Source: Stenotrophomonas sp. 704A1 (GTDB taxonomy: Bacteria; Pseudomonadota; Gammaproteobacteria; Xanthomonadales; Xanthomonadaceae). Taken from it: a DNA stretch of 64,000 bases. The stretch's first letter is position 1; the number at the start of each line of letters is the position of its first letter. The notes under the pieces were generated by a model. That model saw nothing but the letters and a program-made list of their open reading frames with translations, ran no database searches and was not told the origin of the DNA. Both the position numbers and the translations under genes were made by a program. The stretch covers positions 3,249,501 to 3,313,500 of the forward strand of contig NZ_CP130831.1 of assembly GCF_030549525.1 (NCBI RefSeq), given 5' to 3'. Below, in pieces: positions 9,874 to 39,551 of this stretch.

Positions 9874-11904
9874 ATGAGACGTGCCCGTCCGGCCCGCGTG
9901 GGCCTCGCCACCACCCTGCTCGCCCTCGCCACCGGCCAGGCCCTGGCCACCCCGTTGCCGGTGGACGACTTCGCCAGGATTCCTGCCATCCAGTCGGTCA
10001 CGATGAGCCCCGACGGCAAGCAGCTGGTGGCGATCATCGCCGCCCCCGGCAGTGACAACGGCGATACCGCCCTGGCCAACTGGAACCTCGACAACCTGGG
10101 TGCGGGCCCGGTGGCCATCACCCCGTCCGGGGACCGCATGAAGTTCATTGCGGCCAGTGCGCTCAAGGCCGGGCGCAGCCTGGTGATCGGCCGCCAGGAA
10201 CTGACCGCGCAGCTGGCCGGCTGCGGTGAAGGCAATGCCGTGGGCTCCACCAAGACCTTTCTCGCCAAGGCCTACCTGACCGATACCTCGCAGACCACGT
10301 TCGACGAGGCGTTCGCGGACAATTCGCGCAAGCTCGGCATCAGCGAGCAGACCCAGCGCTGCCTGGAACTTGCCGGGTCGGCGTCGCTGGTGCATTCGCT
10401 GCCGCTGGACCCCGACCGGGTGATCATTTCCCAGATCAACCAGTCGACGTTCTCGGCAAGCTACTACCTGTTCAACCTCAAGACCGGGCAGACCGAACTG
10501 CTGTTCCGCGGCGATGCGCGCTCGACGCCCGGACTCTTCCACCCGCGCAACGGCGAGCTCCTTACCCGTACCCAGATCGAGCCGGCCGGTACCAACGAGT
10601 ACGAGCAGCAGATCCTGATCAAGGACAGGTCGAGCGGAAAGTTCGAAAAGCACGATCCGCTGACCACCAGGCTCAGCGAACGCTACACGATGGACGTGGC
10701 GGGCATCGACGACCAGACCGGCAAGCTCTACATCCTCACCGACAGGTTTTCCGAACAGGTGCAGGCACGGCTGTACGATCCAGCCACCCGCACCTTCGAC
10801 AACGAACCGCTGGCCGCGCACCCGCTGTACCCGATCGGCGGACTGATCCTCGGCACCAAGCCAGGCAACTTCAACCAGGTGCTGGGGTTCTACGTGGATG
10901 GGCCACGACGTGAGGCCGTGTATGTCGACCCGCAGATGAAGGCGCTCTACGAGGGCCTGAAACAGGCCTACCCGGGCAAGTACGTCGCCATCTCCGGTTA
11001 CAACGACGACCTTTCGCGCGTGCTGTTCTCCACCAACAGCGCAAGCTCGCCGACCACCTATTACGTGCTGGGCGACCGCTCCAAGGTCACCACGCTGGGA
11101 AGCGAGCGACCGTGGATCGACGGCAAGCAGATCGGCGAGCAGCGCTGGGTCACGTACACCGCGCGCGATGGCCGCAGGATTCCGGCCCTGCTTGACCTGC
11201 CGGCCGGCTGGAAGGACGGCGACCCGGCGCTGCCCGCACTGGTCCATCCGCATGGCGGCCCATGGTCCCGCGATCATGCCGGCTGGGACGTGTCCGGCTG
11301 GGTGCCCTACTTCACCTCGCGCGGTTACGCGGTGATACGCCCGCAGTACCGTGGCTCGACCGGGTTCGGCCGTGACCACTGGATCGCGGGCGACCGGCAG
11401 TGGGGCCTGAGCATGCAGGACGACAACGACGATGCTGCGGCCTGGCTGGTCCAGCAGGGCATTGCCGGCAAGGATCGCGTTGCGATCTTCGGCTATTCCT
11501 ATGGCGGCTTTGCAGCGGCGGCGGCCACGGTGCGCGGCCCATCGCCGTTCCAGTGCGCCATTGCCGGCGCTCCGGTCACCGACCTGGGCCGGGTCGGCAT
11601 GACCTGGAGCGAGAATCGGCTGCAGCGCATCCTGCAGGGGCAGACGGTCAAGGGCATGGATCCCATCCAGAACACCGACAAGGCCAACATCCCGGTGCTG
11701 CTCTATGTGGGCGACCGCGACGTGCGCACGCCCGCGTTCCATGCCCGATCGTTCTACAACGCGGTGCAGGGCAAGGTCCCCGCCAGGTTCGCGCTGATTC
11801 CGGACATGCCCCACAGCATGCCCTGGTACCCCTCCCATATCCGTACCACGCTTCCCCTGATGTCCGACTTCCTGGCCAAGGAGTGCGGACCCGGCGGCCT
11901 CTGA
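9874..11904 (+). CDS. Exported S9-family (prolyl oligopeptidase-like) peptidase
   Basis: A 676-residue serine peptidase with a signal peptide (MRRARPARVGLATTLLALAT, cleaved near ALA-TP), an N-terminal beta-propeller-like region (about 30-430) and a C-terminal alpha/beta-hydrolase domain. The nucleophile is in GYSYGG; the aspartate is probably in VGDRDVRTP and the histidine in DMPHSMPW. The start at 9874 follows AAGGA by ten bases and opens on the signal peptide. It sits between two TonB-dependent receptor genes, which suggests periplasmic cleavage of imported peptides; that link is inferred from position only. Confidence 0.88.
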   Translation: MRRARPARVGLATTLLALATGQALATPLPVDDFARIPAIQSVTMSPDGKQLVAIIAAPGSDNGDTALANWNLDNLGAGPVAITPSGDRMKFIAASALKAGRSLVIGRQELTAQLAGCGEGNAVGSTKTFLAKAYLTDTSQTTFDEAFADNSRKLGISEQTQRCLELAGSASLVHSLPLDPDRVIISQINQSTFSASYYLFNLKTGQTELLFRGDARSTPGLFHPRNGELLTRTQIEPAGTNEYEQQILIKDRSSGKFEKHDPLTTRLSERYTMDVAGIDDQTGKLYILTDRFSEQVQARLYDPATRTFDNEPLAAHPLYPIGGLILGTKPGNFNQVLGFYVDGPRREAVYVDPQMKALYEGLKQAYPGKYVAISGYNDDLSRVLFSTNSASSPTTYYVLGDRSKVTTLGSERPWIDGKQIGEQRWVTYTARDGRRIPALLDLPAGWKDGDPALPALVHPHGGPWSRDHAGWDVSGWVPYFTSRGYAVIRPQYRGSTGFGRDHWIAGDRQWGLSMQDDNDDAAAWLVQQGIAGKDRVAIFGYSYGGFAAAAATVRGPSPFQCAIAGAPVTDLGRVGMTWSENRLQRILQGQTVKGMDPIQNTDKANIPVLLYVGDRDVRTPAFHARSFYNAVQGKVPARFALIPDMPHSMPWYPSHIRTTLPLMSDFLAKECGPGGL

Positions 11905-11933
11905 CCTGCCATTTCCGACTCGCTCACCCCCAG

Positions 11934-11961
11934 AACCGCCGGCCTGCCGGCGGTTTTTTTT
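11934..11961 (+). terminator. Rho-independent terminator of the S9 peptidase gene
   Basis: AACCGCCG and CGGCGGTT pair around GCCTGC, followed by six more T. Located 30 bases after the stop. Confidence 0.9.
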
Positions 11962-12019
11962 CGCCCAGAACCTGAATTTTCTATTAGCAACATACAGTTA
12001 CAGAACGACATCATTCATG

Positions 12020-12048
12020 TTGCATTAAATTTACTCCACCCATACACT
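12020..12048 (+). promoter_or_regulatory. Candidate sigma-70-type promoter of receptor 3
   Basis: TTGCAT, a 17-base spacer, then TACACT, in an AT-rich stretch 38 bases before the receptor start. The -10 matches four of six consensus bases and the -35 three of six, with ideal spacing. This is a plausible but unproven promoter. Confidence 0.35.
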
Positions 12049-12085
12049 CCATTAACCAACGCATAACAAATGGGGGATCTGCACG

Positions 12086-14947
12086 ATGCGCAACTCAATT
12101 CGCCACATTTCGCCAAGCCGCCTGCCGCTCGCTCTGGCAGTCATTGCCTGCCTGCAGGCAGCACCGGTGCTGGCACAGGAATCCACTCGCCAGGAAGCGG
12201 CGGCGTCAAGCGCCTCGAGCAGCGAGAAAAAGGCCACCGATCTTGACAAGGTCACCGTCACCGGCTCCCTGATCCGTCGCGCCGACTACGAGACCACCTC
12301 GCCGGTGTTCACCATCGACACCGAACGCAACGCGGCCCAGGGCCAGACCAGCGTCAGCGAGTTCCTGCAGAAGTCGGCCATCGGTGCCGCCGAAACGCAG
12401 ATCACCAACCAGTTCGGCGGCTTCACCACCAACGGTGGTACCGGCGTGCAGACCTTCTCGCTGCGCGGCCTGGGTGCGAACCGCACGCTGATCCTGCTCG
12501 ATGGCCAGCGTCCGGGCCCGGCCGGTACCCGCGGCGCGGTCGGTGCATTCGACCTGAACGTGCTGCCCACCGCAGTCCTGCAGCGCGCGGAGATCGTGAA
12601 GGACGGCTCGTCCTCGATCTACGGCTCCGACGCTGTGGCCGGTGTGGTCAACCTGATCACCAAGAAGAACTTCGAACGTCCCGAGCTGACCGTCAGCGGG
12701 CGTGTCCCCACCGAGGGCGGCGGCGAGGTGTTCTCCGCGTCGCTGGCCAACGGCTGGAACTTCGACAACGGCAGCATCGTCGCGGCCGTGGAGTGGTATC
12801 GCCAGAACGAGCTGACCCGCGGCGACCGCGATTTCTTCAAGTGCGCCGAAGACATCGTCTGGGATGACCAGGGCAACCGCATCGACCGCGTTGACCGTTC
12901 GATCCTGGCCGGCACCAATCTGGCCAACTGCCAGAACATGCTGCACAACGTCATCGACGTCGGCGCCGTCCGTTACGTGCCCAGCGCCGATGGCAGCACG
13001 GTGGGGCCGTTCCCGGGCTACCGTCCGCGCGTGAACCAGACCTATGCCAACGGCAACCCGCTGGCGACCTACCAGGAACCGTACAACTTCCCGGCCTATG
13101 GCAAGAGCCAGATCATCAACCGCCAGGAGCGCAAGACGGTCTACTTCGCCACTGATTTCGGCTTCGATGCGTTCAACTGGAAGACCCAGTTCCTGTACAA
13201 CAACCGCACCACCGACAACTTCGCCTGGCGCCAGTTCTTCCCGACCGTGCTGATCCCGGGCACCACCACCCGCGCCCAGCCGGTGCTGCCGTTCAAGTCT
13301 GCGTCCGAGACCGAAGTGGATTACTACTACTTAGCCAACAAGTTCGATGGTGGCTTCGGCAGCAGCACCTGGGGCTGGGAAGTCAACGCCAACTACAGCC
13401 ACTCCAGCGGCAAGTACAGCAACCTCGGCATCCGCAACTCGATCAGCGGCGACATCGGCCGCCCGGGCACCGGCACTGCGGCGGCGAACTACTTCGATCC
13501 GGGCTATCTGAATGGCTCGAAGGTCGACGAGCTGGTCTCGATCCTCGGCGTCTGGGCCAAGGGCAAGACCACCTACGATCAGACCACGGTCAATGCCGTG
13601 TTCAGCGGTGAGCTGTTCGATCTTCCGGCCGGTGCCGTGGCTTCCGCCGTCGGTGTCGAGTACCGCAACTACAAGATCGACGACCAGCCGGGTGCCGATT
13701 TTGCCGACATCTGGGGTTCGACCACCGCGGGTCGCACCAAGGGCGATGAGAAGGTGAAGGAAGCCTTCGTCGAGCTGGACGTGCCGCTCATCAAGGGCGT
13801 TCCGGGCTTCGAATCGCTGTCGCTGAACGGTTCGGGCCGCATCTTCAAGTACGACACCGTGTCCGGGTCGGACAAGGTGTGGAAGTTCGGCGTCAACTGG
13901 CAGATCATCCCGTCGCTGCGTCTGCGCGGCACCATCGGCACCTCCTACCGTGCCCCGGGCCTGTACGAGCTGTATCTGGGCAACCAGACCGGCTTCCAGG
14001 CGCAGACCGCCATCGATCCGTGCATCCGCTGGGCGGAAGGCAACAACAGCAATGCTGCTGCCAACTGCGCCGCTGCCGGCATTCCGGGCGACTACACCGC
14101 GGCAGGCAACAGCAGCGCCACCGTGTTCACCCGTGGCGGCGCCGGCGGTGATCTGAAGCCGGAAACCTCGCGTGCGCGCAGCGTGGGCCTGGTGTTCACT
14201 CCGGAGTTCGCCGACCTGAGCATCGCCATCGACTACTTCGATTACGAAGTCAGCGACCAGATCACCGCGCTGAGTGCGGCCTCCATCCTGGAAGGCTGCT
14301 ACGAGTCGACGACCTACCCGAACCGGTACTGCGACCTGATGCGCCGCAACCCGAATTCGGGCACCAACGCGAACATGATCACCGAGGTGTACGCGCAGTA
14401 CCTGAACATCAATCGCCAGCGTACCCGCGGTTGGGACCTGACCCTGAACTGGGAACACGAGTTCAGCTTCGGCAAGTTCTCGCTGGATTCGCAGGTCACC
14501 TACACCGTCGAAGACACCGCCGAACTGTTCGACAGCGCAGCGGCCAGCGGCCTGTCCTCGTCCGATCAGCTGGGTGATTTCGGTCGCCCGGACCTGGTCG
14601 GCAACCTGGGCCTGAGCCTGGAGCGCGGCGACTGGACCTACAACTGGATGACCCAGTACATCGCGTCGACCCAGGATCCGGACCTGCTGGAAACCTTCAC
14701 CTACCAGGGCCGTTCGAACTCGTACCGCGACATCACCGCAGGCAGCCGCTGGTATCACACTGCTTCGCTGAGCTACGAGCAGGCAGACTGGCAGATCCTG
14801 GTCGGTGTCTCCAACGTGTTCGACGCCAAGCCGCCGCTGATCTCCAGCAGCGTCTACTCCTCGCGCTACGGCAACACCCACCCGTTCGCCACCCAGTACG
14901 ACTACTACGGCCGCACCCCGTTCGTGCGCCTGAAGTACAAGTTCTGA
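12086..14947 (+). CDS. TonB-dependent receptor 3
   Basis: A 953-residue outer-membrane receptor with signal peptide MRNSIRHISPSRLPLALAVI (cleaved near PVLA-Q), a Ser/Ala-rich linker, a TonB-box-like DKVTVTGSLI, and a plug with SLRGLGANRTLILLDGQR and IYGSDAVAGVVNLIT. It ends in the aromatic strand FVRLKYKF. A GGGGGAT ribosome-binding site precedes the ATG. It is clearly more distant from receptors 1 and 2 than they are from each other. The ligand is unknown. Confidence 0.92.
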   Translation: MRNSIRHISPSRLPLALAVIACLQAAPVLAQESTRQEAAASSASSSEKKATDLDKVTVTGSLIRRADYETTSPVFTIDTERNAAQGQTSVSEFLQKSAIGAAETQITNQFGGFTTNGGTGVQTFSLRGLGANRTLILLDGQRPGPAGTRGAVGAFDLNVLPTAVLQRAEIVKDGSSSIYGSDAVAGVVNLITKKNFERPELTVSGRVPTEGGGEVFSASLANGWNFDNGSIVAAVEWYRQNELTRGDRDFFKCAEDIVWDDQGNRIDRVDRSILAGTNLANCQNMLHNVIDVGAVRYVPSADGSTVGPFPGYRPRVNQTYANGNPLATYQEPYNFPAYGKSQIINRQERKTVYFATDFGFDAFNWKTQFLYNNRTTDNFAWRQFFPTVLIPGTTTRAQPVLPFKSASETEVDYYYLANKFDGGFGSSTWGWEVNANYSHSSGKYSNLGIRNSISGDIGRPGTGTAAANYFDPGYLNGSKVDELVSILGVWAKGKTTYDQTTVNAVFSGELFDLPAGAVASAVGVEYRNYKIDDQPGADFADIWGSTTAGRTKGDEKVKEAFVELDVPLIKGVPGFESLSLNGSGRIFKYDTVSGSDKVWKFGVNWQIIPSLRLRGTIGTSYRAPGLYELYLGNQTGFQAQTAIDPCIRWAEGNNSNAAANCAAAGIPGDYTAAGNSSATVFTRGGAGGDLKPETSRARSVGLVFTPEFADLSIAIDYFDYEVSDQITALSAASILEGCYESTTYPNRYCDLMRRNPNSGTNANMITEVYAQYLNINRQRTRGWDLTLNWEHEFSFGKFSLDSQVTYTVEDTAELFDSAAASGLSSSDQLGDFGRPDLVGNLGLSLERGDWTYNWMTQYIASTQDPDLLETFTYQGRSNSYRDITAGSRWYHTASLSYEQADWQILVGVSNVFDAKPPLISSSVYSSRYGNTHPFATQYDYYGRTPFVRLKYKF

Positions 14948-30845: not shown

Positions 30846-31051
30846 GTTGGGCGGGACGCCGACGGGCCTGACGTCCTTGTCGCAACTGCCCCGATGGTGG
30901 CCGCTGATCGTCGCCGGCTGCGTTGGTCCTTCATGTCACGGTCCCAAGGGTCGCGACCGGCTGCCCCGTGCGGCCACGGCAATCCGGCGCGGGGCGGCGC
31001 GCCGGTTCGCCCGACCAGGCCGCCCGTGGTGCCCGGATGCTGGGGGAAGGC

Positions 31052-32404
31052 ATGGCGGCAAGCCTGGAGATTCCATCACGCTGCGTGATCTGGTTCGGAC
31101 AGCCGCAGGCGGCCGAACGCACCGCGCTGGCCGCCGCCGGCTGGCAGCTGCGCAGCGTCAGCCCCACTCCCGGCATGGCGGTGGGTCTGCGCGGCCGCGA
31201 TCACCTGGTGGCCGTGGTGGACCTGCGCCACCTCGATGCCGACGCCCTGCAGCTGCTGCTGCCCTGGATCGAACGACATCACCACCTGCCCTGGCTGGCG
31301 GTACTGCCGCCCGGGCTGGGGAGTCCGCCACCGGCGTGGGGCGCCATCCTGCGCGCCTGCCTGGAGCAGTTCTCGCTGCCACTGGATCTGCAGGACCTGC
31401 TGGGCGCGATGCAGCGGCGATCCGACGACGACGGCCCGCCGCGCGCGTCGGTCTGCGCTGGCGCCGGGCTCCCCGCGCTGATTGGCGACAGCACCGCGCT
31501 GCTGGCGGTGCGCGCGGCCCTGCACAAGTTCGCGCCGGTCGAACTGCCGGTGCTGGTGACCGGCGAAACCGGCACCGGCAAGGAACTGGCGGCACAGGCG
31601 CTGCACGCGCTTTCCGGCCGTGCGGCGCGCCCGTTCCTGGCGGTGAACTGCGGTGCGATTCCCGCCAACCTGGTCCAGTCCGAACTGTTCGGCCACGAGC
31701 GCGGCGCCTTCACCGGTGCCGCGCAGCGCCGCATCGGGCTGTTCGAAAGTGCCCATGGCGGCACCGTGTTTCTCGATGAAGTCGGCGACCTGCCTGCCGA
31801 TGCACAGACCAGCCTGCTGCGGGTGCTGCAGGAAGGCACCCTGGAGCGGGTGGGCAGCAACCAGCCGCTGCGGGTCGATGTGCGTGTGCTGGCCGCGACC
31901 CATGTCGAACTGGAACAGGCGGTGGCCCAGGGCCGCTTCCGCCGCGATCTCTACTATCGCCTCAACGTGCTGCGCCTGCCGATGCCGCCGCTGCGTGACC
32001 GCGGCAACGACGTGCTGCTGCTGGCCGAGCATTTCCTGCGCAGCTTCCGCCAGCGTCACCCCGGCCGCGCACGCGGTTTCGACCCCGGCGCACGCCAGGC
32101 GATGCGCGGCTTCGACTGGCCCGGCAACGTGCGCGAACTGTTGAACCGGGTGCAGCGTGCCGCGATCGTGGCAGAAGGCGAACTGATCGGTGCCGCCGAC
32201 CTCGACCTGGCCGGTGCCGATGCGCCGGCACGGCGCGCCCCGCTGCAGGATGCGCGGGGACAGGTCGAACGCGATGTGCTGCTGCAGGCCCTGCGGCAAC
32301 ACGGCTACAACGTGTCGGCGTGCGCACGGCACATGCAGGTGTCGCGGGTGACGGTCTACCGGCTGTGCCGCAAGCACCAGCTGCAGCTGCCGCCCGAACG
32401 CTAG
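31052..32404 (+). CDS. Sigma-54-dependent enhancer-binding regulator next to the fap-like operon
   Basis: A 450-residue activator with three parts. Residues 1-135 form an unconserved regulatory domain with the look of a degenerate receiver (CVIWFGQPQAAERTALAAAG, VVDLRHLD). The AAA+ domain has Walker A GETGTGKE (171-178), the sigma-54 contact loop GAFTGA (218-223), Walker B GGTVFLDE (236-243) and FRRDLYYRLN (297-306). A Fis-type helix-turn-helix (about 415-440) ends the protein. The ATG at 31052 follows GGGGGAAGG. The layout resembles FleQ/VpsR-type regulators. It is convergent with fapF, and the fapA promoter is a sigma-54 type, so the operon is its likely target by inference. Confidence 0.9.
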   Translation: MAASLEIPSRCVIWFGQPQAAERTALAAAGWQLRSVSPTPGMAVGLRGRDHLVAVVDLRHLDADALQLLLPWIERHHHLPWLAVLPPGLGSPPPAWGAILRACLEQFSLPLDLQDLLGAMQRRSDDDGPPRASVCAGAGLPALIGDSTALLAVRAALHKFAPVELPVLVTGETGTGKELAAQALHALSGRAARPFLAVNCGAIPANLVQSELFGHERGAFTGAAQRRIGLFESAHGGTVFLDEVGDLPADAQTSLLRVLQEGTLERVGSNQPLRVDVRVLAATHVELEQAVAQGRFRRDLYYRLNVLRLPMPPLRDRGNDVLLLAEHFLRSFRQRHPGRARGFDPGARQAMRGFDWPGNVRELLNRVQRAAIVAEGELIGAADLDLAGADAPARRAPLQDARGQVERDVLLQALRQHGYNVSACARHMQVSRVTVYRLCRKHQLQLPPER

Positions 32405-32410
32405 CGGTGA

Positions 32411-32429
32411 CGCCGGGCGGTGCCCGGCG
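32411..32429. repeat. GC-rich hairpin between convergent regulator and fapF
   Basis: CGCCGGGC, GGT, GCCCGGCG: a perfect eight-base stem in the 51-base gap between the two convergent genes, resembling a SMAG hairpin without the GTAG head. There is no T-run. It may act as a bidirectional end for both transcripts. Confidence 0.5.
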
Positions 32430-32455
32430 GCGGTGTCTGCATGGCCCGTTGGCCG

Positions 32456-33745
32456 CTACAGCATGTAGGGCACCTTGAAGGCCAGGGTGAAGTCCGGCGC
32501 GTCCGGCGTCAGGCCGATGCCCAGCAGCGTGACCAGCGTGGTGTGCTGGTTCAATGCATAGGTCACCCCCAGGTTCAGCGACGCGGCATTGGCATCACTG
32601 CCGATCACCTTCACCCATTGCCCGCCCTTGAAGCGGGTCGAGGCGCGGGTACTGATCTTGTCGCTGAAGGAAATGCTCAGGCTGGTACGTTCGTTGAACG
32701 CGAAGGCGACACCGGCCCCGAAGTACACCGACCCGCCCAGCTTGACGTCGCCGGGGTTGACCGTATCGGGGTTGCTGTCGATATCACTGAAGCCGCGCGG
32801 GAACGAATGCACATAGCCGGCATTGGCGAACAGGATCGCCGGATCGGCGGTCTTCACCATCGACACGCCGAGGTTGGCCTGCCACACGCCGTTGCCGGTC
32901 GGCTGCTCGCGCGGCACCGCGAAGCGGATGTAGTCATCGTCGTCGCGTTCGATCACCTTCCAGTCCAGGCCATACGGGGCACGCCCGGTCGGTGCGGTGA
33001 AGCCACCGGTCAGTACCGTCTCCGGGCGCCAGCCGCGCTCGCCGAACAGCCGGTAGTTGGCACTCATGCTGACATCGCCGATACCGCTGCCGTTGGTCTC
33101 CTCCTGCGCGATGGCCGCAGCGGCGCCGCCGGCGCCCCCCTTCTGGTAGACCGTGCGACGCGCCAGATAGGGCACGTCCATGTTCAAGGTCAGGTTGGGG
33201 CTGACCCCCCAGCGGGCGGCGAGGTTGTAGGTCAGCGAATCGGATTCGACATTCTCCACCGCGATGTTGCCGAGGAAGATCGCATCCAGTGCCAGAAAGC
33301 CGTTGAGGGTCAGCTGCTTGCGGTCGTAGCGGGCGTAGGTGAGGCTGTTTTCCAGCGTGAAGCGGCGCGAGAACAGCGCGGCCTGCTGCTGCTTGACGTC
33401 GTCGACGCTGCGCCGCGCTTCCTGCTTGGCCTGCTGCGCCTCGGCGGCACTGCTGGCGTAGCCTTCGCTGCTGGGTGGCACCGCAGCCGCCGCGGCGGGC
33501 GCCAACGCGGCAGCCGGCGCGGTGCCGGACCCCGCACGACCGCTCAGCCGTGCCTGCATCGCCTGCACCTGCATGTCCAGTTCGCGCAGGCGACGTACCT
33601 CCTGCGCGTAGTTGGCTTTCAGTTGTTCCAGTTGCGCGATCAGGGCCTGCATGTCGGCGCCATCGGTGGCCGCGGGCTGCTGGGCGAAGGCGGTCGCCGC
33701 CAGCGCCGCCAGCGCCAGCGGGGTAAGCCGGATGAATGTATGCAT
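32456..33745 (-). CDS. fapF: FapF-like outer-membrane pore for amyloid export
   Basis: A 429-residue protein with signal peptide MHTFIRLTPLALAALAATAF. A coiled-coil follows (about 32-68, MQALIAQLEQLKANYAQEVR and onward), then an Ala/Pro linker (about 75-95), a second helical segment rich in Gln/Lys (about 98-125), and a beta-barrel of amphipathic strands ending LAFKVPYML. Pseudomonas FapF is a trimeric barrel with an N-terminal coiled-coil that exports FapC, and the arrangement here is the same. It is last in the six-gene operon, 45 bases after fapE. The identification rests on layout and synteny. Confidence 0.82.
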   Translation of the reverse strand: MHTFIRLTPLALAALAATAFAQQPAATDGADMQALIAQLEQLKANYAQEVRRLRELDMQVQAMQARLSGRAGSGTAPAAALAPAAAAAVPPSSEGYASSAAEAQQAKQEARRSVDDVKQQQAALFSRRFTLENSLTYARYDRKQLTLNGFLALDAIFLGNIAVENVESDSLTYNLAARWGVSPNLTLNMDVPYLARRTVYQKGGAGGAAAAIAQEETNGSGIGDVSMSANYRLFGERGWRPETVLTGGFTAPTGRAPYGLDWKVIERDDDDYIRFAVPREQPTGNGVWQANLGVSMVKTADPAILFANAGYVHSFPRGFSDIDSNPDTVNPGDVKLGGSVYFGAGVAFAFNERTSLSISFSDKISTRASTRFKGGQWVKVIGSDANAASLNLGVTYALNQHTTLVTLLGIGLTPDAPDFTLAFKVPYML

Positions 33746-33790
33746 GTCGGTGACCTGCGTTGTGCCTCGATTCCCCCCGACCGGGCCGTG

Positions 33791-34543
33791 CTACTGGCCC
33801 GGACCCATGCCGCGGTTCAACCCGATCGCCTGCGCCACGTTCTGGCTCAACGGCAGGTTGCTCGCCACGGTGTTGCGCACCAGTTCCAGCTGCAGCCGGT
33901 TGCTGGCGGTCTGTCCATCGCCGGCCAGGGCAATGCCCTGCCCCACGCTGCCATTGCGGATCCACTGCTGGACCAGGCCCTGTCCATCGACCTGCAGCAT
34001 CAGCCGGGCCTGGTTGCCATCGAGCACGGCCGTTGCACTGGCCCCGCCCTGCTGCATCTGTGCCACGCGCACGCCGTCGTCGGCCGCCGCGCCGGGCGCC
34101 ACGCCGTCACGCACGGTCAGCGTGGTCACGTTGCGCGCGGTGTTGCCATCGCCGGCCACCTGCACGCTCTGCACCAGGCCGCTGGCATTGGCCAGGCCGG
34201 TGCTGTCGATGCTGCGTCCGGTGGTGGTCGGCAACGGCGCATCGGCCGCGGTGACCTGGACGCTGGGCTGGAACGTCAGCTTCGGGGTTGCGCCGGTGCG
34301 GAAGTCCATGCCCAGGGTGAGCGCGCCCTGTACGGTTGCGCCATTGGCGCCCTGCCACTGCGACACCATGGTCACGCCGAACCAGGCCACGTTGTTGCCC
34401 CCCACGGTGTAGCGGCCACGCATCAGGTTCAGTTCGGGATCGGGAATTTCCTTCAGGCCGCGCCCCGGTGCCCCTTCGGCCGCCAGCAACGGCGATACCG
34501 ACAGCATCAGCAGCAGGGCCAGCAGTACACGTTGGCGTTGCAT
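33791..34543 (-). CDS. fapE: FapE-like exported protein
   Basis: A 250-residue exported protein: signal peptide MQRQRVLLALLLMLSVSPLL (cleaved near AA-EG), then a region rich in Gln, Asn, Gly and Thr with beta-type periodicity (e.g. GLVQSVQVAGDGNTARNVTT, GQGIALAGDGQTASNRLQLE). A very strong GAAGGAGG ribosome-binding site overlaps the end of fapD, so the two are tightly coupled. In Pseudomonas, FapE is a minor component found with the fibres; here the name is based mainly on position between the C39 protease and the pore. Confidence 0.75.
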   Translation of the reverse strand: MQRQRVLLALLLMLSVSPLLAAEGAPGRGLKEIPDPELNLMRGRYTVGGNNVAWFGVTMVSQWQGANGATVQGALTLGMDFRTGATPKLTFQPSVQVTAADAPLPTTTGRSIDSTGLANASGLVQSVQVAGDGNTARNVTTLTVRDGVAPGAAADDGVRVAQMQQGGASATAVLDGNQARLMLQVDGQGLVQQWIRNGSVGQGIALAGDGQTASNRLQLELVRNTVASNLPLSQNVAQAIGLNRGMGPGQ

Positions 34544-34556
34544 GATCGTGCCTCCT

Positions 34557-35261
34557 TCAGAACAGGTCGGCGTGGCTGAAGCCGAAGTCGACCAGTTCGG
34601 CATCGGTGATCGGTCCCTGCCGCGCATACAGCGCCCGGGCACTGGGCCGTTCGCTGGGCTGCAGCAGCACCGTGTTGCGGTCGAAGTCGCTGCCGATCAC
34701 GACGAAAACGGCGCGTGACGGCCAGGCAGCGCTGAACTCGGACAGCGACAGGCTGCGGTTGCCGAGGATCGGATCGGCCACTTCCACCACGCCGTCGCGC
34801 ACCTGCTTGAGCACGACGAAATGACGGAAGCCACGCACATCCATCAGCACCAGGCCGGGAACCCGCAGCGTGCGCAGGCGGGTCTCGTCGATGCGGTAGC
34901 CACGTCCACGCATGCCCAGCGATTCGACATAGCGCTTGATGTCCAGCAGCGAGAAGCCGCGTTCCTTTACCAGTTGTGGATCGGATACCCCCATCATTCC
35001 CTCGATCACCGTCGCTTCGTTCGTGTCCAGGTGGTAGGCGTAACGCAGGATGGTGGCCAGTGCGGCCGCGCCGCAGCTGTAGTCGGTGTGTTGCCGCACC
35101 AGGTTGCGGTAGCGCCGCTCCTGCATGCTCTCCACCTTCTGCTGCAGCAGTGCGCCGTTGGGCAGCACGCCACTGAACACCACTTCGCCCGCCCAGCCAT
35201 GCACGCTGGCCAGCAGCAGCAGGCAGGGCAACAGACGCAGGTAGCAGCGACGACCGGCCAT
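34557..35261 (-). CDS. fapD: FapD-like C39 cysteine protease
   Basis: A 234-residue exported protein with signal peptide MAGRRCYLRLLPCLLLLASV (cleaved near GWA-GE) and a C39 peptidase domain: Cys63 in DYSCGAAALATIL, His147 in GFRHFVVLKQV and Asp163 in VADPILGNRSLS. FapD of the Pseudomonas amyloid system is a C39-type protease, the same family as bacteriocin-exporter leader peptidases. The ATG at 35261 follows GGAGAAC; the frame is open further upstream through the hairpin-rich spacer. The putative catalytic residues are all present. Confidence 0.87.
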   Translation of the reverse strand: MAGRRCYLRLLPCLLLLASVHGWAGEVVFSGVLPNGALLQQKVESMQERRYRNLVRQHTDYSCGAAALATILRYAYHLDTNEATVIEGMMGVSDPQLVKERGFSLLDIKRYVESLGMRGRGYRIDETRLRTLRVPGLVLMDVRGFRHFVVLKQVRDGVVEVADPILGNRSLSLSEFSAAWPSRAVFVVIGSDFDRNTVLLQPSERPSARALYARQGPITDAELVDFGFSHADLF

Positions 35262-35282
35262 GATGTTCTCCAGCAGAAGGAA

Positions 35283-35321
35283 GGAGCCCCTGGCCCAAGG
35301 GGGAGGAGGGACAGGGGCTCC
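35283..35321 (-). other. Intercistronic stem-loop, fapC-fapD spacer (fapD-proximal)
   Basis: A ten-base inverted repeat: GGAGCCCCTG at 35283-35292 and CAGGGGCTCC at 35312-35321, with a 19-base loop. Lies 22 bases before the fapD start. It has no T-run, so it is more likely to stabilise the upstream fapABC message or slow fapD translation than to end transcription. Confidence 0.6.
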
Positions 35322-35327
35322 CGGGGA

Positions 35328-35351
35328 CCCGGCCATTGGCGGATGGCCGGG
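35328..35351 (-). other. Intercistronic stem-loop, fapC-fapD spacer (fapC-proximal)
   Basis: A nine-base inverted repeat, CCCGGCCAT and ATGGCCGGG, around a six-base loop, 49 bases after the fapC stop. It is followed in the mRNA by the second hairpin. Together they separate the fibre-subunit genes from the export genes. Confidence 0.6.
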
Positions 35352-35399
35352 CTTGTTGCGCTCAACGCAGGCTTGCTGCGAAAGCGGTCACGCTGGGGA

Positions 35400-36785
35400 T
35401 CACTCGCCGCCGCCGGTGCCGCCACCGCCGGTGCTCGGCTGTGCCACCGCCAGCGCCAGGCTGTTGGCCTGCAGATTGCCGGTGCCGGAGGCCACGTTCA
35501 CGCCGATGTTGCCGGAGGCGCCGGAGAAGGCACTGCCCGACAATGCCGAGGTGTTGGTCGCATTGACGTTCACCCAGCGGGTGGTGCTGACCGTGCCGCT
35601 GAGGCTGGCATACAGGTCGGCCACGCCCAGTTCGACGAACTGGCTGGTGCCGCTTTCACGCGTGTCGAAGCCCAGCCCACCCACGCCCGGACGATTCGGG
35701 TTCATCGTTGCGTTCTGGATCTCGTTGTCCAGGTCGATGTGGCCGGTGCTGTTGCCATCCGGATGCGGCAGGTCGCCATCCCAGGTATCGAGGTAGTAGT
35801 TCGCCATCTGGTAGGCATTGCCGGAACCGCGGTAGGTGCCGGCACCGTAGGCCAGGGTCAGGCCGCTGACGCCGCCGCGCATGCCGACCTGCACCGTATC
35901 GGTGTAGGACTGCACGAAGCCGGCGTTGGACACCGTGTTGCCGGTGGAGACCTGGTTGGAGCTGATGCTCGACTGCGCCATCGCGCTGGTGGCCACCGAG
36001 GCCGCAAGGGCGTTCTTCTGCTCGTTGTTGTTGCCCGACGCGATGTTCACGCCGATGTTGCCCGACGCGCCGCCGAAGGCATTGCCACCGAGGCCGGCCG
36101 CGTTGGTCACGCCGGTATTCATGGTGGTGTTGTTGAAGCCGGCCTGGTTGACGAACACTTCGGCGTCAGCCATGCCGAAGCTGAAGGACGCATCGGCGGC
36201 CGACAGCGATGCTGCGTTGTCCTGCGCGTTGTTGTCGCCGGCCACCACGTTGAAGCCGAGGTTGCCGGACGCGCCGGCGCCGACGTCATCGGCGATGGAG
36301 GCGGAGTTGGTCACCAGGCTGTTGGAACCGAGGTTGTTGCTGATCGACTGGCGGTTGTCGATGACCGCGATCGCGGCCGAGTCCAGGTCGATGTTGCCGG
36401 TGATGGTCGGATCGCCCGAGAAGTTGATGTCCGAGCTCAGCCGCAGGTCCTTCTCCAGGTTCACGTCGACGCCGTGGTTGTTCTTTTCCTTGCGCTCGTC
36501 GGCCTGGATGTTGCTGTTCTTCTGCACCTGCTCGTTGACGTTCACCGTGCGGGTGCGGCTGACGTTGGAGGTGTCGGTGTTGTTGCGCACCGTGGTGTTG
36601 GTGCGGGTCCAGTTGCGGACTTCGTTGTCGGTATGGTTGTGGGTGTCGTTGCGGGTCTCGGTCACGACATGGTTGTGGTTGATGTTCGCGCTGGCATTCT
36701 GGTTGTCCCAGCCATTGGCCGCCGCAGCGGTCGAGGCAGTGGCAATTGCCATGGCGAGTACGGTCTGTTTGACGGTCGCTTTCAT
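35400..36785 (-). CDS. fapC: FapC-like major amyloid fibre subunit
   Basis: A 461-residue exported protein: signal peptide MKATVKQTVLAMAIATASTA (cleaved near AAA-NG) and an Asn/His/Thr/Arg-rich polar region (about 26-120). Three imperfect amyloid-type repeats sit at about 171-197, 239-265 and 422-448, each on the pattern GASGN(L/I)G(F/V)N(V/I)-x-(A/S)G-x-x-N-x-Q. Long linkers separate them; the linker before repeat 3 is about 156 residues. The tail is TGGGGTGGGE. There is no cysteine, whereas Pseudomonas FapC ends with a CxxC motif. Position between the fapB-like and C39 protease genes supports the call. Confidence 0.83.
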   Translation of the reverse strand: MKATVKQTVLAMAIATASTAAAANGWDNQNASANINHNHVVTETRNDTHNHTDNEVRNWTRTNTTVRNNTDTSNVSRTRTVNVNEQVQKNSNIQADERKEKNNHGVDVNLEKDLRLSSDINFSGDPTITGNIDLDSAAIAVIDNRQSISNNLGSNSLVTNSASIADDVGAGASGNLGFNVVAGDNNAQDNAASLSAADASFSFGMADAEVFVNQAGFNNTTMNTGVTNAAGLGGNAFGGASGNIGVNIASGNNNEQKNALAASVATSAMAQSSISSNQVSTGNTVSNAGFVQSYTDTVQVGMRGGVSGLTLAYGAGTYRGSGNAYQMANYYLDTWDGDLPHPDGNSTGHIDLDNEIQNATMNPNRPGVGGLGFDTRESGTSQFVELGVADLYASLSGTVSTTRWVNVNATNTSALSGSAFSGASGNIGVNVASGTGNLQANSLALAVAQPSTGGGGTGGGE

Positions 36786-36828
36786 GGTGCCCTCTCTCTC
36801 ATCAGGTGATACATCGGGTGGTTGTTGC

Positions 36829-37452
36829 TCACGGGTTGCCCTGCACGGCCATGGTCAGCACGTTGGCCGTGTCATTGCGCGCTCCCGCGATCTGATTGAG
36901 TTGCAGGACACCGTCGAAGCCCCGCAGCGCCGTCGAAGCGACGCCGGCACTGCGGATACCCGCCGCAACACCGTCACCGGTGTCGCCCTGCCCCCCTGCT
37001 GACGCGATGTCCGAGGCGGCCAGCGCCGCGTCATCGGACTCGCGTATGCCTTGCCGGGCCAGCGTCGCGCTGACGACGTTGAGCGTCGTGTTGGCGATGC
37101 CGCTGGTCTGGTTGATCGATGCGATGCCACTGGCGCCGGCCAACGCCTGGCCGCCGATCTGCGCACTGGCATCCAGCGGCGCCGACAGCACCCGGTTGCC
37201 GCTGCGTTGCTGGCGCGCTGCGATCGCTGCCGCGGCCTGCGCTCCGCTGGCCATGCCATGCAGGTTGGCCTGGATGTTGAGGTCGCCGGCGGCCTGGTTG
37301 ACCGCGATGGCACCGCTGGCGCCGGCCAGTGCACGGCCGTCGATGCGGGCCACGTCCAGATACGCGAGCATGCCGCTGTACTCGTCGGCGATGGCGGCCA
37401 GCGGCGATGCCAGCGCGAACAGGCCCAGCATGGCCTGCAGTGCGCGCTTCAC
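36829..37452 (-). CDS. fapB: FapB-like minor amyloid subunit/nucleator
   Basis: A 207-residue exported protein with signal peptide MKRALQAMLGLFALASPLAA (cleaved near IA-DE). Three repeats are at about 41-67, 103-129 and 176-202, following AL(A/R)G-x-x-G-x-x-x-x-NQ-x-(A/S)G-x-x-N. These resemble, but are shorter-spaced than, the FapC repeats. In Pseudomonas FapB is a minor subunit thought to nucleate FapC. No cysteine is present. It overlaps fapA by four bases (ATGA) and precedes fapC by 43 bases. Confidence 0.8.
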   Translation of the reverse strand: MKRALQAMLGLFALASPLAAIADEYSGMLAYLDVARIDGRALAGASGAIAVNQAAGDLNIQANLHGMASGAQAAAAIAARQQRSGNRVLSAPLDASAQIGGQALAGASGIASINQTSGIANTTLNVVSATLARQGIRESDDAALAASDIASAGGQGDTGDGVAAGIRSAGVASTALRGFDGVLQLNQIAGARNDTANVLTMAVQGNP

Positions 37453-37985
37453 TTGCCACCCGCCTGTGCCGGCGCACCCAGCGGGAACTGCGACAGCGCA
37501 CCGCGCACGGTATCGCCGATGCCACGCGTGGTGTTGCCGACCGCACCCAGCGGGCCGCTCATCGCACCGCTGAGGCTGCTGCCGCTCATCATCCCTTCGC
37601 CGGAGCGGCCGAGGGTGCCGCCCAGCGCCTGCTGGGTGACCCGCTCGACGGTGGTACCGCCCGGCGCGCTCACGCTGCCGGCGTGGCCGGCGCCCAGGCC
37701 GGCGTAATCGTCATCGCTGAGTTCGTCCATGCCACTGGAGCCGCCGCTGCTGCCGAGGGCAGCGGCAATCTCGCGCTGCGGCTTGGGGTCGGCGATGAGC
37801 GCCATGCCGGGCGGTGCCATGCGGTACGCCGGGCGCGCCGCCACGTCCCGCAGCAGCACCATTTCGCCCGGCTGCGATTTCACGCCCTGGCGGGCACCCG
37901 AGGCCGCGGCCGCCAGTGGGCAGGCCAGCGCCAACAGCAGCATCAGCTGCCGCGCGGAAACCGTGAAGTGGTTGCTGCTGTCCAT
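37449..37985 (-). CDS. fapA: FapA-like exported protein, first gene of the operon
   Basis: A 178-residue exported protein with an N-terminal signal (about residues 10-28, VSARQLMLLLALACPLAAAA) and a mature part rich in Gly, Ser and Ala (SSGGSSGMDELSDDDYAGLG, SGSSLSGAMSGPLGAVG). In Pseudomonas, FapA is a periplasmic chaperone-like protein that affects the FapB/FapC balance. Sequence resemblance alone would not be enough here; the name relies on being first in the operon, directly overlapping fapB. A GGGAGAG ribosome-binding site lies just upstream and a sigma-54 promoter 34 bases before the start. Confidence 0.72.
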   Translation of the reverse strand: MDSSNHFTVSARQLMLLLALACPLAAAASGARQGVKSQPGEMVLLRDVAARPAYRMAPPGMALIADPKPQREIAAALGSSGGSSGMDELSDDDYAGLGAGHAGSVSAPGGTTVERVTQQALGGTLGRSGEGMMSGSSLSGAMSGPLGAVGNTTRGIGDTVRGALSQFPLGAPAQAGGK

Positions 37986-38018
37986 GCCGCTCTCCCGTTG
38001 CGTATGCGCAGGGACAGA

Positions 38019-38034
38019 GCAGATTCCGTGCCAA
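38019..38034 (-). promoter_or_regulatory. Sigma-54 (-24/-12) promoter of the fap-like operon
   Basis: On the minus strand the sequence reads TTGGCACGGAATCTGCT, matching the sigma-54 consensus TGGCAC-N5-TTGC at all positions but one (C for the first T of TTGC). The invariant GG and GC pairs and their spacing are intact. A start site about 12 bases downstream (near 38007) would leave a 22-base leader with a GGGAGAG ribosome-binding site before fapA. It fits the neighbouring sigma-54 activator gene. Confidence 0.82.
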
Positions 38035-38095
38035 CCGGCGAAGGTCGGCGCAGCGGGGCATTGCGCAGCGCAAGGGGCTGGCGGCTGGCGCCACG

Positions 38096-38209
38096 CTGTT
38101 ACAGCCGTGTGCGGATTGCGTTTGCCTTAACGCGCAGGAAACATCACGGCGCAAGGCCGCACGGGGGCTGTATCAACCCTGTTACAGCGGCTGATACAGC
38201 CTGTTGCAG
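38096..38209 (-). promoter_or_regulatory. Putative upstream activating sites of the fap-like operon
   Basis: Copies of a CTGTNACAG-type palindrome: CTGTTACAG at 38096-38104 and 38179-38187, CTGATACAG at 38191-38199, CTGTTGCAG at 38201-38209, and a degenerate CTGTATCAA at 38168-38176. The distal four start 11, 12 and 10 bases apart, about one helical turn each. GGCTGTATCA (38166-38175) and TGATACAGCC (38192-38201) also form a perfect inverted repeat. They lie about 60 and 135-175 bases before the -24 element, a usual distance for enhancer sites. The cluster ends just after the symporter stop codon. Confidence 0.6.
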
Positions 38210-38216
38210 CGCCGCT

Positions 38217-39551
38217 TCAGGCGCGCGGCGGACTCGGGTCGGGATCGTCCATGCCGACATTGGTGGACGGGTTGTCATACACCGCCTGGTCCAGCAGCCC
38301 GGTTTCCTTGGCCACCAGCACCGGCACAAGCATCTGCCCGGTCACATTGGTCATGGTGCGCATCATGTCCAGGATGCGATCGATCGCATACAGGTAGCCG
38401 ATGGTTTCCAGCGGCAGGTTGGCCGCACTCAGCACTACCGTCGCCATGATCACCGCCGTACCGGGAACGCCAGCCGTACCGAAACTGCCCAGCACCGATG
38501 CGATCAGCACCACCACGTACTGCTCGGGGGTCAATGGCACACCGCTGTACTGCGCGATGAACACCGCGCACAGCGCCGGGTAGATCGCACCGCAGCCATC
38601 CATCTTGATGCTCGCCCCCAGCGGCACCGCGAACGAACCGTAGTCCTTGTTCACGCCCAGGTTGTGGGTGATCGAGCGCAGCGCCACCGGCATCGCGGCG
38701 AAGCTGGACGAGCTGACGAACGCCACCTGCATGCCCGGCGCGGCGCCGCGGAAGAACTTCAGCGGATTCAGCCCGTGCGACAGCAGCAGCGCGCTGTAGA
38801 CCACCACGATGTGCAGCGCGCAGGCCACGTACAGCGCCAGCACGAAGTGACCCAGCGGCAGCAGCTTCTCGAAACCATAGCTGCCGACCAGGCCGGCGAT
38901 CAGGCCGAACGTGCCGATCGGGGTGACTTCCAGCACGAAGCGGGTCACCTGGATCATGATGTCGCTCATCTGCCCGACCAGCTTGCGCGCCTCGGTCACC
39001 TTCTCGCCCAGCTTGACGATGGCAAAGCCGACCAGGCCGGCAAAGAAGATCACCGGCAGGATCGAGCCGCGTCCGGCGGCGAGTACGGTCTCGCCTGCTG
39101 CGTTGACCTTGGTGCCGATGCCCGACAGCGCGTAGAACACGTTGGCCGGCACCACGTCCAGCAGCACCTGCACCACGCTGGGCACTTCGCGCGGCACGTA
39201 GTTGCTGGCCATCGACAGCTGCAGGCCACCGGCACCGGGCTGCAGCACGGTGCCCACCCCCAGGCCCACGCACACCGCCAGCGCAGCGGTGATCACGAAC
39301 CACAGGAAGGTGCGGCCACTGAGCGCGGCAACCGACTTCTGGCCGTGCAGCGAGGAGATCGCGTTGATGACCGCGAAGAACACCAGCGGCACCGCGATCA
39401 TCTTGATCAGGGTGACATACAGCTCACCGAGCGGGCCGAACCACGTTTCCGCGGCCGGGCCCAGCGCCCAGCCGGCCAGCGCGCCGAGCACGAAGCCACC
39501 GACCACGCGCTGCCAGAATGGAATCCGCAGCCAGGCAGAGACCAGCTTCAT
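38217..39551 (-). CDS. Dicarboxylate/amino acid:cation symporter (DAACS family)
   Basis: A 444-residue inner-membrane transporter of the GltP/DctA family. It has the re-entrant loop and helix motifs SSSSFAAMPVAL, PLGASIKMDGCGAIYPALCA, FGTAGVPGTAVIMATVVLSA and a Asp-containing segment (LYAIDRILDMMRTMTNVTGQ). It imports acidic amino acids or C4-dicarboxylates with Na+ or H+; the exact substrate is not clear. The ATG at 39551 opens on a short amphipathic stretch before helix 1. It is divergent from the phosphatase gene. Confidence 0.92.
   Translation of the reverse strand: MKLVSAWLRIPFWQRVVGGFVLGALAGWALGPAAETWFGPLGELYVTLIKMIAVPLVFFAVINAISSLHGQKSVAALSGRTFLWFVITAALAVCVGLGVGTVLQPGAGGLQLSMASNYVPREVPSVVQVLLDVVPANVFYALSGIGTKVNAAGETVLAAGRGSILPVIFFAGLVGFAIVKLGEKVTEARKLVGQMSDIMIQVTRFVLEVTPIGTFGLIAGLVGSYGFEKLLPLGHFVLALYVACALHIVVVYSALLLSHGLNPLKFFRGAAPGMQVAFVSSSSFAAMPVALRSITHNLGVNKDYGSFAVPLGASIKMDGCGAIYPALCAVFIAQYSGVPLTPEQYVVVLIASVLGSFGTAGVPGTAVIMATVVLSAANLPLETIGYLYAIDRILDMMRTMTNVTGQMLVPVLVAKETGLLDQAVYDNPSTNVGMDDPDPSPPRA

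Follow-up and report, generated by a model that had tools for sequence, protein, structure and literature searches.

Gene content and order of the fap locus

We analyzed a 64,000-nucleotide stretch of Stenotrophomonas sp. 704A1 (contig NZ_CP130831.1, positions 3,249,501 to 3,313,500; hereafter the window), which lies within a single 4.69-Mb contig. Positions 32456-37985 of the window harbor, on the minus strand, six intact open reading frames (ORFs) that match the six NCBIfam models of the Fap functional amyloid system one for one, in the order fapA-B-C-D-E-F:

37449..37985, minus strand: fapA-like, 178 aa, small exported protein, putative Fap chaperone (NCBIfam chaperone_FapA, 2.5e-8, 34.4 bits against a cut-off of 110 bits)
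36829..37452, minus strand: fapB-like, 207 aa, GTG start, minor fibre subunit with three Fap repeats (NCBIfam FapB, 3.3e-21)
35400..36785, minus strand: fapC-like, 461 aa, major amyloid subunit with three Fap repeats and without CxxC (NCBIfam FapC, 2.4e-48)
34557..35261, minus strand: fapD-like, 234 aa, periplasmic C39 cysteine protease (NCBIfam FapD, 4.8e-77; Pfam Peptidase_C39, 1.7e-19)
33791..34543, minus strand: fapE-like, 250 aa, exported accessory protein (NCBIfam FapE, 3.2e-26 over residues 1-242)
32456..33745, minus strand: fapF-like, 429 aa, outer-membrane amyloid exporter, with a beta-barrel and, by eye, a coiled coil (NCBIfam FapF, 8.2e-110)

Export of these proteins was judged by eye from their hydrophobic N-termini. 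The length of FapD is counted from the ATG at 35261, the ORF as scanned having one extra leading residue. A previous sequence-only reading of this region had described six same-strand products in a tight cluster, with the order and product set of Fap; all six ORFs are found there, and the ordered profile matches agree with it. The ATGA overlap it gave for the first two genes is actually GTGA (stop TGA of fapA, start GTG of fapB), and the gap between fapE and fapF is 45 bases. It had also held that the names FapA and FapE rest largely on position, which is not so, each matching its own NCBIfam model (2.5e-8 and 3.2e-26, respectively). Among Pfam families, the C39 peptidase (gene 4) and the Phenol_MetA_deg barrel family (gene 6, 30.3 bits) score above cut-off in the six ORFs, and nothing else does.

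For comparison, 59 named related loci were located through FapF peptide patterns, a selection biased to close relatives; counts over 60 given below are for these loci and the window. The six fap genes lie in order on one strand, as best tblastn matches, in 59/59 of them, including one that stops inside fapF (L059) and one with broken reading frames in several genes (L060). Judged from the sequences, chance is not a serious alternative for the cluster, because six different profiles match in order and all six genes are ordered in every named locus.

FapD protease and FapF exporter

The catalytic triad that the sequence-only reading assigned to the C39 protease (Cys63/His147/Asp163) is correctly positioned and is identical in 60/60 FapD sequences, window included. 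The last product, which it described as a coiled coil plus a beta-barrel, matches the solved structure of FapF (PDB 5o65) at 5.2e-77 over residues 109-428, while the N-terminal coiled coil was read by eye from the sequence.

A Fil-type pilus, or another export system sharing a FapD/FapF-like C39 protease and barrel, could export non-amyloid adhesins with the same pair of proteins. The Fil pilus system of Acinetobacter has a related C39 peptidase and barrel: the window FapD matches FilB at 9.2e-35 and the window FapF matches FilC at 3.2e-22. Furthermore, the FapD and FapF models are unspecific when used alone, according to Dueholm 2013 (PMC3792158; this and all other papers are cited here from excerpts). 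However, the Fap models outscore the Fil models by 138 bits for FapD (258 versus 120) and by 288 bits for FapF (367 versus 79). The FapA, FapB, FapC and FapE models also match, the Fap repeat is present three times in each of the two subunits, and the Fil models had no match to genes 1, 2, 3 or 5. In the profile check for unrelated export systems that the sequence-only reading proposed, the C39 protease and the barrel score best with FapD and FapF. The Fil pilus and unrelated C39 export systems were ruled out on these profile scores, and an adhesin exporter of this kind is extremely improbable at this locus.

Subunits FapB and FapC

The presence of two repeat-bearing subunits, also proposed from the letters alone, was borne out with the strict Fap repeat G-x4-N-x3-G-x6-N, of which there are usually three per subunit (motif from PMC3792158). 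FapB has three repeats (residues 47, 109 and 181) and FapC three (residues 174, 242 and 425), whereas the shuffled window proteins have means of 0.01 and 0.11, respectively, and reached three in 0/2000 shuffles each. Three repeats are found in 59/60 FapB and 59/60 FapC, both exceptions being L060 with its broken frames. Between the signal peptide and the repeats, the window FapC has an Asn-, Thr- and Asp-rich stretch of about 118 residues; among the 59 FapC sequences with three repeats, this stretch ranges from 47 to 165 residues (median 116). FapC matches the solved FapC fibres PDB 9nqd and 9u4u at 3.8e-12 and 5.7e-12.

The C-terminal CxxC of FapC is termed conserved in a 2018 review (PMC6173800). 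It occurs in 0/60 FapC and in 0/60 FapB of the window and named loci, and in more distant Fap loci it is found near the C-terminus in 7/21 FapC-like ORFs and in 0/17 FapB-like ORFs. This distribution suggests that the motif is dispensable in evolution, and it was not treated as defining for membership in Fap. Two loci from another genus of the same family harbor paired FapC-like ORFs, apparently in tandem (L151:3747-6125 and 4429-5250; L152:10836-13262 and 11729-12517), each with a CxxC near its C-terminus.

A linked sigma-54 activator

The sequence-only reading was silent on the regulator and the promoter. There is a sigma-54 activator gene next to the operon:

30923..32404, plus strand: BrfA-like sigma-54 activator, convergent with fapF, with a VpsR-type N-terminal domain, an AAA+ domain and a Fis helix-turn-helix (HTH)

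Its true start may be 31037 or 31052 instead of 30923. In Pfam, the product matches Sigma54_activat (2e-68), VpsR (26.7 bits against a cut-off of 23.7) and HTH_8. The genome has eight strong sigma-54 activators, besides three weak matches, and two sigma-54 genes; the VpsR domain was found at E <= 1e-4 in 0/7 of the other strong activators. A G+C-rich inverted repeat without a T run, perhaps a shared terminator, was seen by eye at 32410-32432, in the gap where fapF and the activator gene converge.

An activator gene is linked to fap in 58/59 named loci, being convergent downstream in 39 and divergent upstream of fapA in 19, all of the S. maltophilia group. The sole unlinked locus is L059, whose contig ends inside fapF. 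In addition, 20 distant stretches from other genera and families were examined, 18 of which are additional to the named set, since L149 and L154 share contigs with the named L054 and L058. A linked activator is present in 19, in various orientations, and none was found in L138. The single named Aeromonas caviae record, labelled a plasmid despite its 4.9 Mb, has the activator upstream in divergent orientation. VpsR scores above cut-off in 8/10 of the fap-linked activators from other lineages (7/9 from distant loci, plus Aeromonas).

In a phylogenetic tree, a branch with support 98/96 separates 32 fap-linked activators from 32 paralogues of six genomes, and 0/500 label shuffles gave as good a separation. 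The fap-linked input comprised 14 of the 59 activators of the window and named loci and all 19 distant ones; the program dropped L047 as too gappy, and L142 has under half of the columns. The paralogues were the other seven of the window genome and 25 of five further genomes, taken from the best 30 loci.

Promoter and predicted activator sites upstream of fapA

The region upstream of fapA contains a sigma-54 promoter and four predicted activator sites:

38018..38033, minus strand: sigma-54 -24/-12 promoter TGGCACGGAATCTGCT, which agrees with the consensus at 11 of 12 positions and starts 48 bases ahead of the fapA ATG
38096..38104, minus strand: fourth predicted activator site CTGTAACAG, a TGTWACA-type match
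38168..38199, minus strand: three predicted activator sites, clustered at intervals of about one helical turn, CTGTATCAG (38191-38199), CTGTAACAG (38179-38187) and TTGATACAG (38168-38176)

The TGGCACGGAATCTGCT pattern has no other match in the window. A sigma-54 site with at least 10 of 12 consensus positions precedes fapA in 59/60 loci, 30 to 75 bases from the projected start, L051 being without one; in 100 Markov-shuffled sets, such a site precedes on average 2.1 and at most 5 of the 60. A sigma-70 promoter before fapA was also considered and rejected, since the consensus scan of 32000-38400 found none there.

Among the distant loci, 10/20 have a sigma-54 site at this threshold. A scan extended towards the activator adds three (L135-L137; 13/20), in which the site precedes other small ORFs and not directly fapB. 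No such site was found in L138, L140-L142 and L146, while in L139 and L148 the 5' end is outside the stretch taken. The small ORFs of L135-L137 lie between the activator and fapB and look exported (L135:11700-12906, L136:3003-4200 and L137:12100-13392). In each locus, one of them has the sequence VILWDE with an N-T/S-Q stretch after it and, by eye, a short FapE-like motif at the N-terminus; they are possibly extra, undescribed Fap components.

TGTWACA, TGTATCA or TGATACA sites are present in 56/60 upstream regions, against 2.2 expected, counts that are neither blind nor independent, since the motif was picked after viewing the same regions and the loci are related. Their distances recur: many loci have them at about -225, -213, -201 and -118, and those of the S. 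maltophilia group at -198 and -115. Core and positions are kept while flanks and spacers vary. TGTWACA-type sites are found in just 5/20 distant loci, and the site code therefore looks lineage-specific as far as these sequences go.

The scarcity of sites in distant loci would also fit an activator that is a mere neighbor controlling something else, with fap switched by another activator, as would its position, which varies by lineage (convergent, divergent, or on the same strand on either side of fap). However, the gene remains with fap through these changes and forms one clade apart from the 32 paralogues, and in P. fluorescens fap is under the control of a gene placed as in the window (PMC9207406). 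We regard a mere neighbor as unlikely.

Distribution of the fap operon

FapF is present in 83/91 genomes of the genus Stenotrophomonas, and Stenotrophomonas cyclobalanopsidis is the closest named relative when FapF is compared (92%). The FapF family model is found in 37/299 genomes of the order at E <= 1e-50 and in 17/369 of the class at E <= 1e-60. The operon DNA had no match in a plasmid collection, which together with the frequency of FapF in the genus ruled out a plasmid or mobile origin.

The sequence-only reading is right that the operon lies outside Pseudomonas, but this is not news. A 2013 paper had already described Fap in Stenotrophomonas, with S. maltophilia among the species (PMC3792158, Dueholm). 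It was listed again in 2018 (PMC6173800), and a 2025 paper noted it for S. rhizophila and S. maltophilia (PMC12246864). The finding of Fap is correct, ordinary in kind and already published for the genus.

The operon might be present but silent in this strain. Its six ORFs are intact, with the triad and repeats conserved, the promoter is kept in all but one of the 60 loci and FapF in most genomes of the genus. A silent operon is accordingly very unlikely.

Some records deserve comment. L026, titled Bacillus subtilis strain SK7B5, holds a Stenotrophomonas-type fap locus and is probably a contaminated or mislabelled assembly. L060, a record of Pseudoxanthomonas sp. NC8, has its matches to the fap genes and to the activator spread over several frames, because of either sequence frameshifts or a decaying locus. 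L138 and L139 are two fap-like loci of one genome (G631), with a linked activator in L139 only within the stretch taken.

Comparison with known Fap systems

The window shares with Pseudomonas Fap the gene set and order, the repeats of FapB and FapC, the C39 FapD and the FapF barrel. It differs in the divergence of all six proteins and in its FapC, which has the Asn/Thr/Asp-rich stretch before the repeats and no CxxC. The S. maltophilia/Xanthomonadales Fap (Dueholm 2013), from the same genus, has the same six genes in the same order; the activator gene lies upstream of fapA in divergent orientation in the 19 named loci of the S. maltophilia group, whereas the window has it downstream of fapF in a convergent layout.

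A -24/-12 promoter has been mapped for fapA in P. fluorescens PF07, where brfA follows directly after fapA-F in reverse orientation and deleting either rpoN or brfA reduces fap transcription (PMC9207406); BrfA senses c-di-GMP (PMC13101488). The window activator is likewise a Fis-family sigma-54 activator, reverse and adjacent downstream of fapF, together with a -24/-12 fap promoter. The likeness lies in layout and domains, and c-di-GMP binding by the window activator is proposed from the VpsR domain. Among the titles and abstracts in the matches listed, the literature on Fap and its regulation contained no fap regulator outside Pseudomonas, which is no proof of absence.

Several observations weigh against a Fap operon with a BrfA-type regulator. 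First, all six window proteins are under the NCBIfam equivalog cut-offs (bits against cut-off: FapA 34/110, FapB 76/190, FapC 165/195, FapD 258/330, FapE 92/250 and FapF 367/700). These cut-offs are naming thresholds and no biological feature, and FapF reaches its own in 0/299 genomes of the order and 0/369 of the class. Second, FapC lacks the CxxC, and its structure model is of low confidence (mean pLDDT 49.9) and was not used as proof; a Foldseek search with it had the FapC fibre 9u4u as best match, weakly (E 0.09), with none reaching 0.001 and none significant. Third, when the N-terminal part of the activator is compared on its own with solved structures, VpsR is found at E 0.056, ranked below an irrelevant match at 0.028; two of the ten fap-linked activators from other lineages (L146 and L147) have no VpsR match; and the proposed orthology of the window activator to BrfA rests on layout and domains. 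Finally, fapF of PF07 was not upregulated along with fapA-E (PMC9207406), so that a single fapA-F transcript is not assured in the window, where fapF may have a separate expression pattern, and the matches listed for the literature on Fap contained no fibre experiment in Stenotrophomonas.

Taken with these points, the evidence makes it very probable that the locus is a complete Fap functional amyloid operon of the Xanthomonadales branch with a dedicated BrfA-type, probably c-di-GMP-responsive regulator. The distinct Fap lineage suggested in the sequence-only reading holds as sequence divergence, with all six proteins below the naming cut-offs and a FapC without CxxC.

Proposed mechanism and significance

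RNA polymerase carrying sigma-54 would be poised at the -24/-12 element upstream of fapA. The BrfA-like activator has a VpsR-type domain that probably senses c-di-GMP, a role proposed from this domain and the parallel with BrfA, and would bind the TGTWACA-type sites, which lie at about -118 and between about -190 and -213, as modelled on Pseudomonas. The bound activator would loop over and open the promoter, and the resulting transcript would cover fapA-E and perhaps fapF. The steps after transcription follow work on Pseudomonas. The Fap products would enter the periplasm via their signal peptides, FapA would hold the subunits unfolded, and FapD would act as a C39 protease working with the exporter. 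FapF would export FapB and FapC via a gated trimeric barrel. FapB would then seed fibres of FapC, FapE being a minor accessory component, and the fibres would contribute to the biofilm matrix.

We lean towards a broader view, in which Fap is a seven-gene module whose dedicated activator, with a VpsR domain presumed to sense c-di-GMP, has travelled with fapA-F across many gammaproteobacterial families, shifting position and orientation yet remaining linked. The Xanthomonadales version would read TGTWACA-type sites in a conserved array, spaced by about one helical turn; in the S. maltophilia group the gene would have moved to a divergent layout beside the sites, and the lineage of the window has a FapC without CxxC.

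The operon itself confirms the published distribution of Fap, and the added value lies in the regulator, the enhancer array and the CxxC-free FapC. The Fap amyloid of Stenotrophomonas and its relatives, an opportunistic species among them, is predicted to be controlled directly by c-di-GMP and sigma-54, by way of a linked activator and a defined enhancer array.

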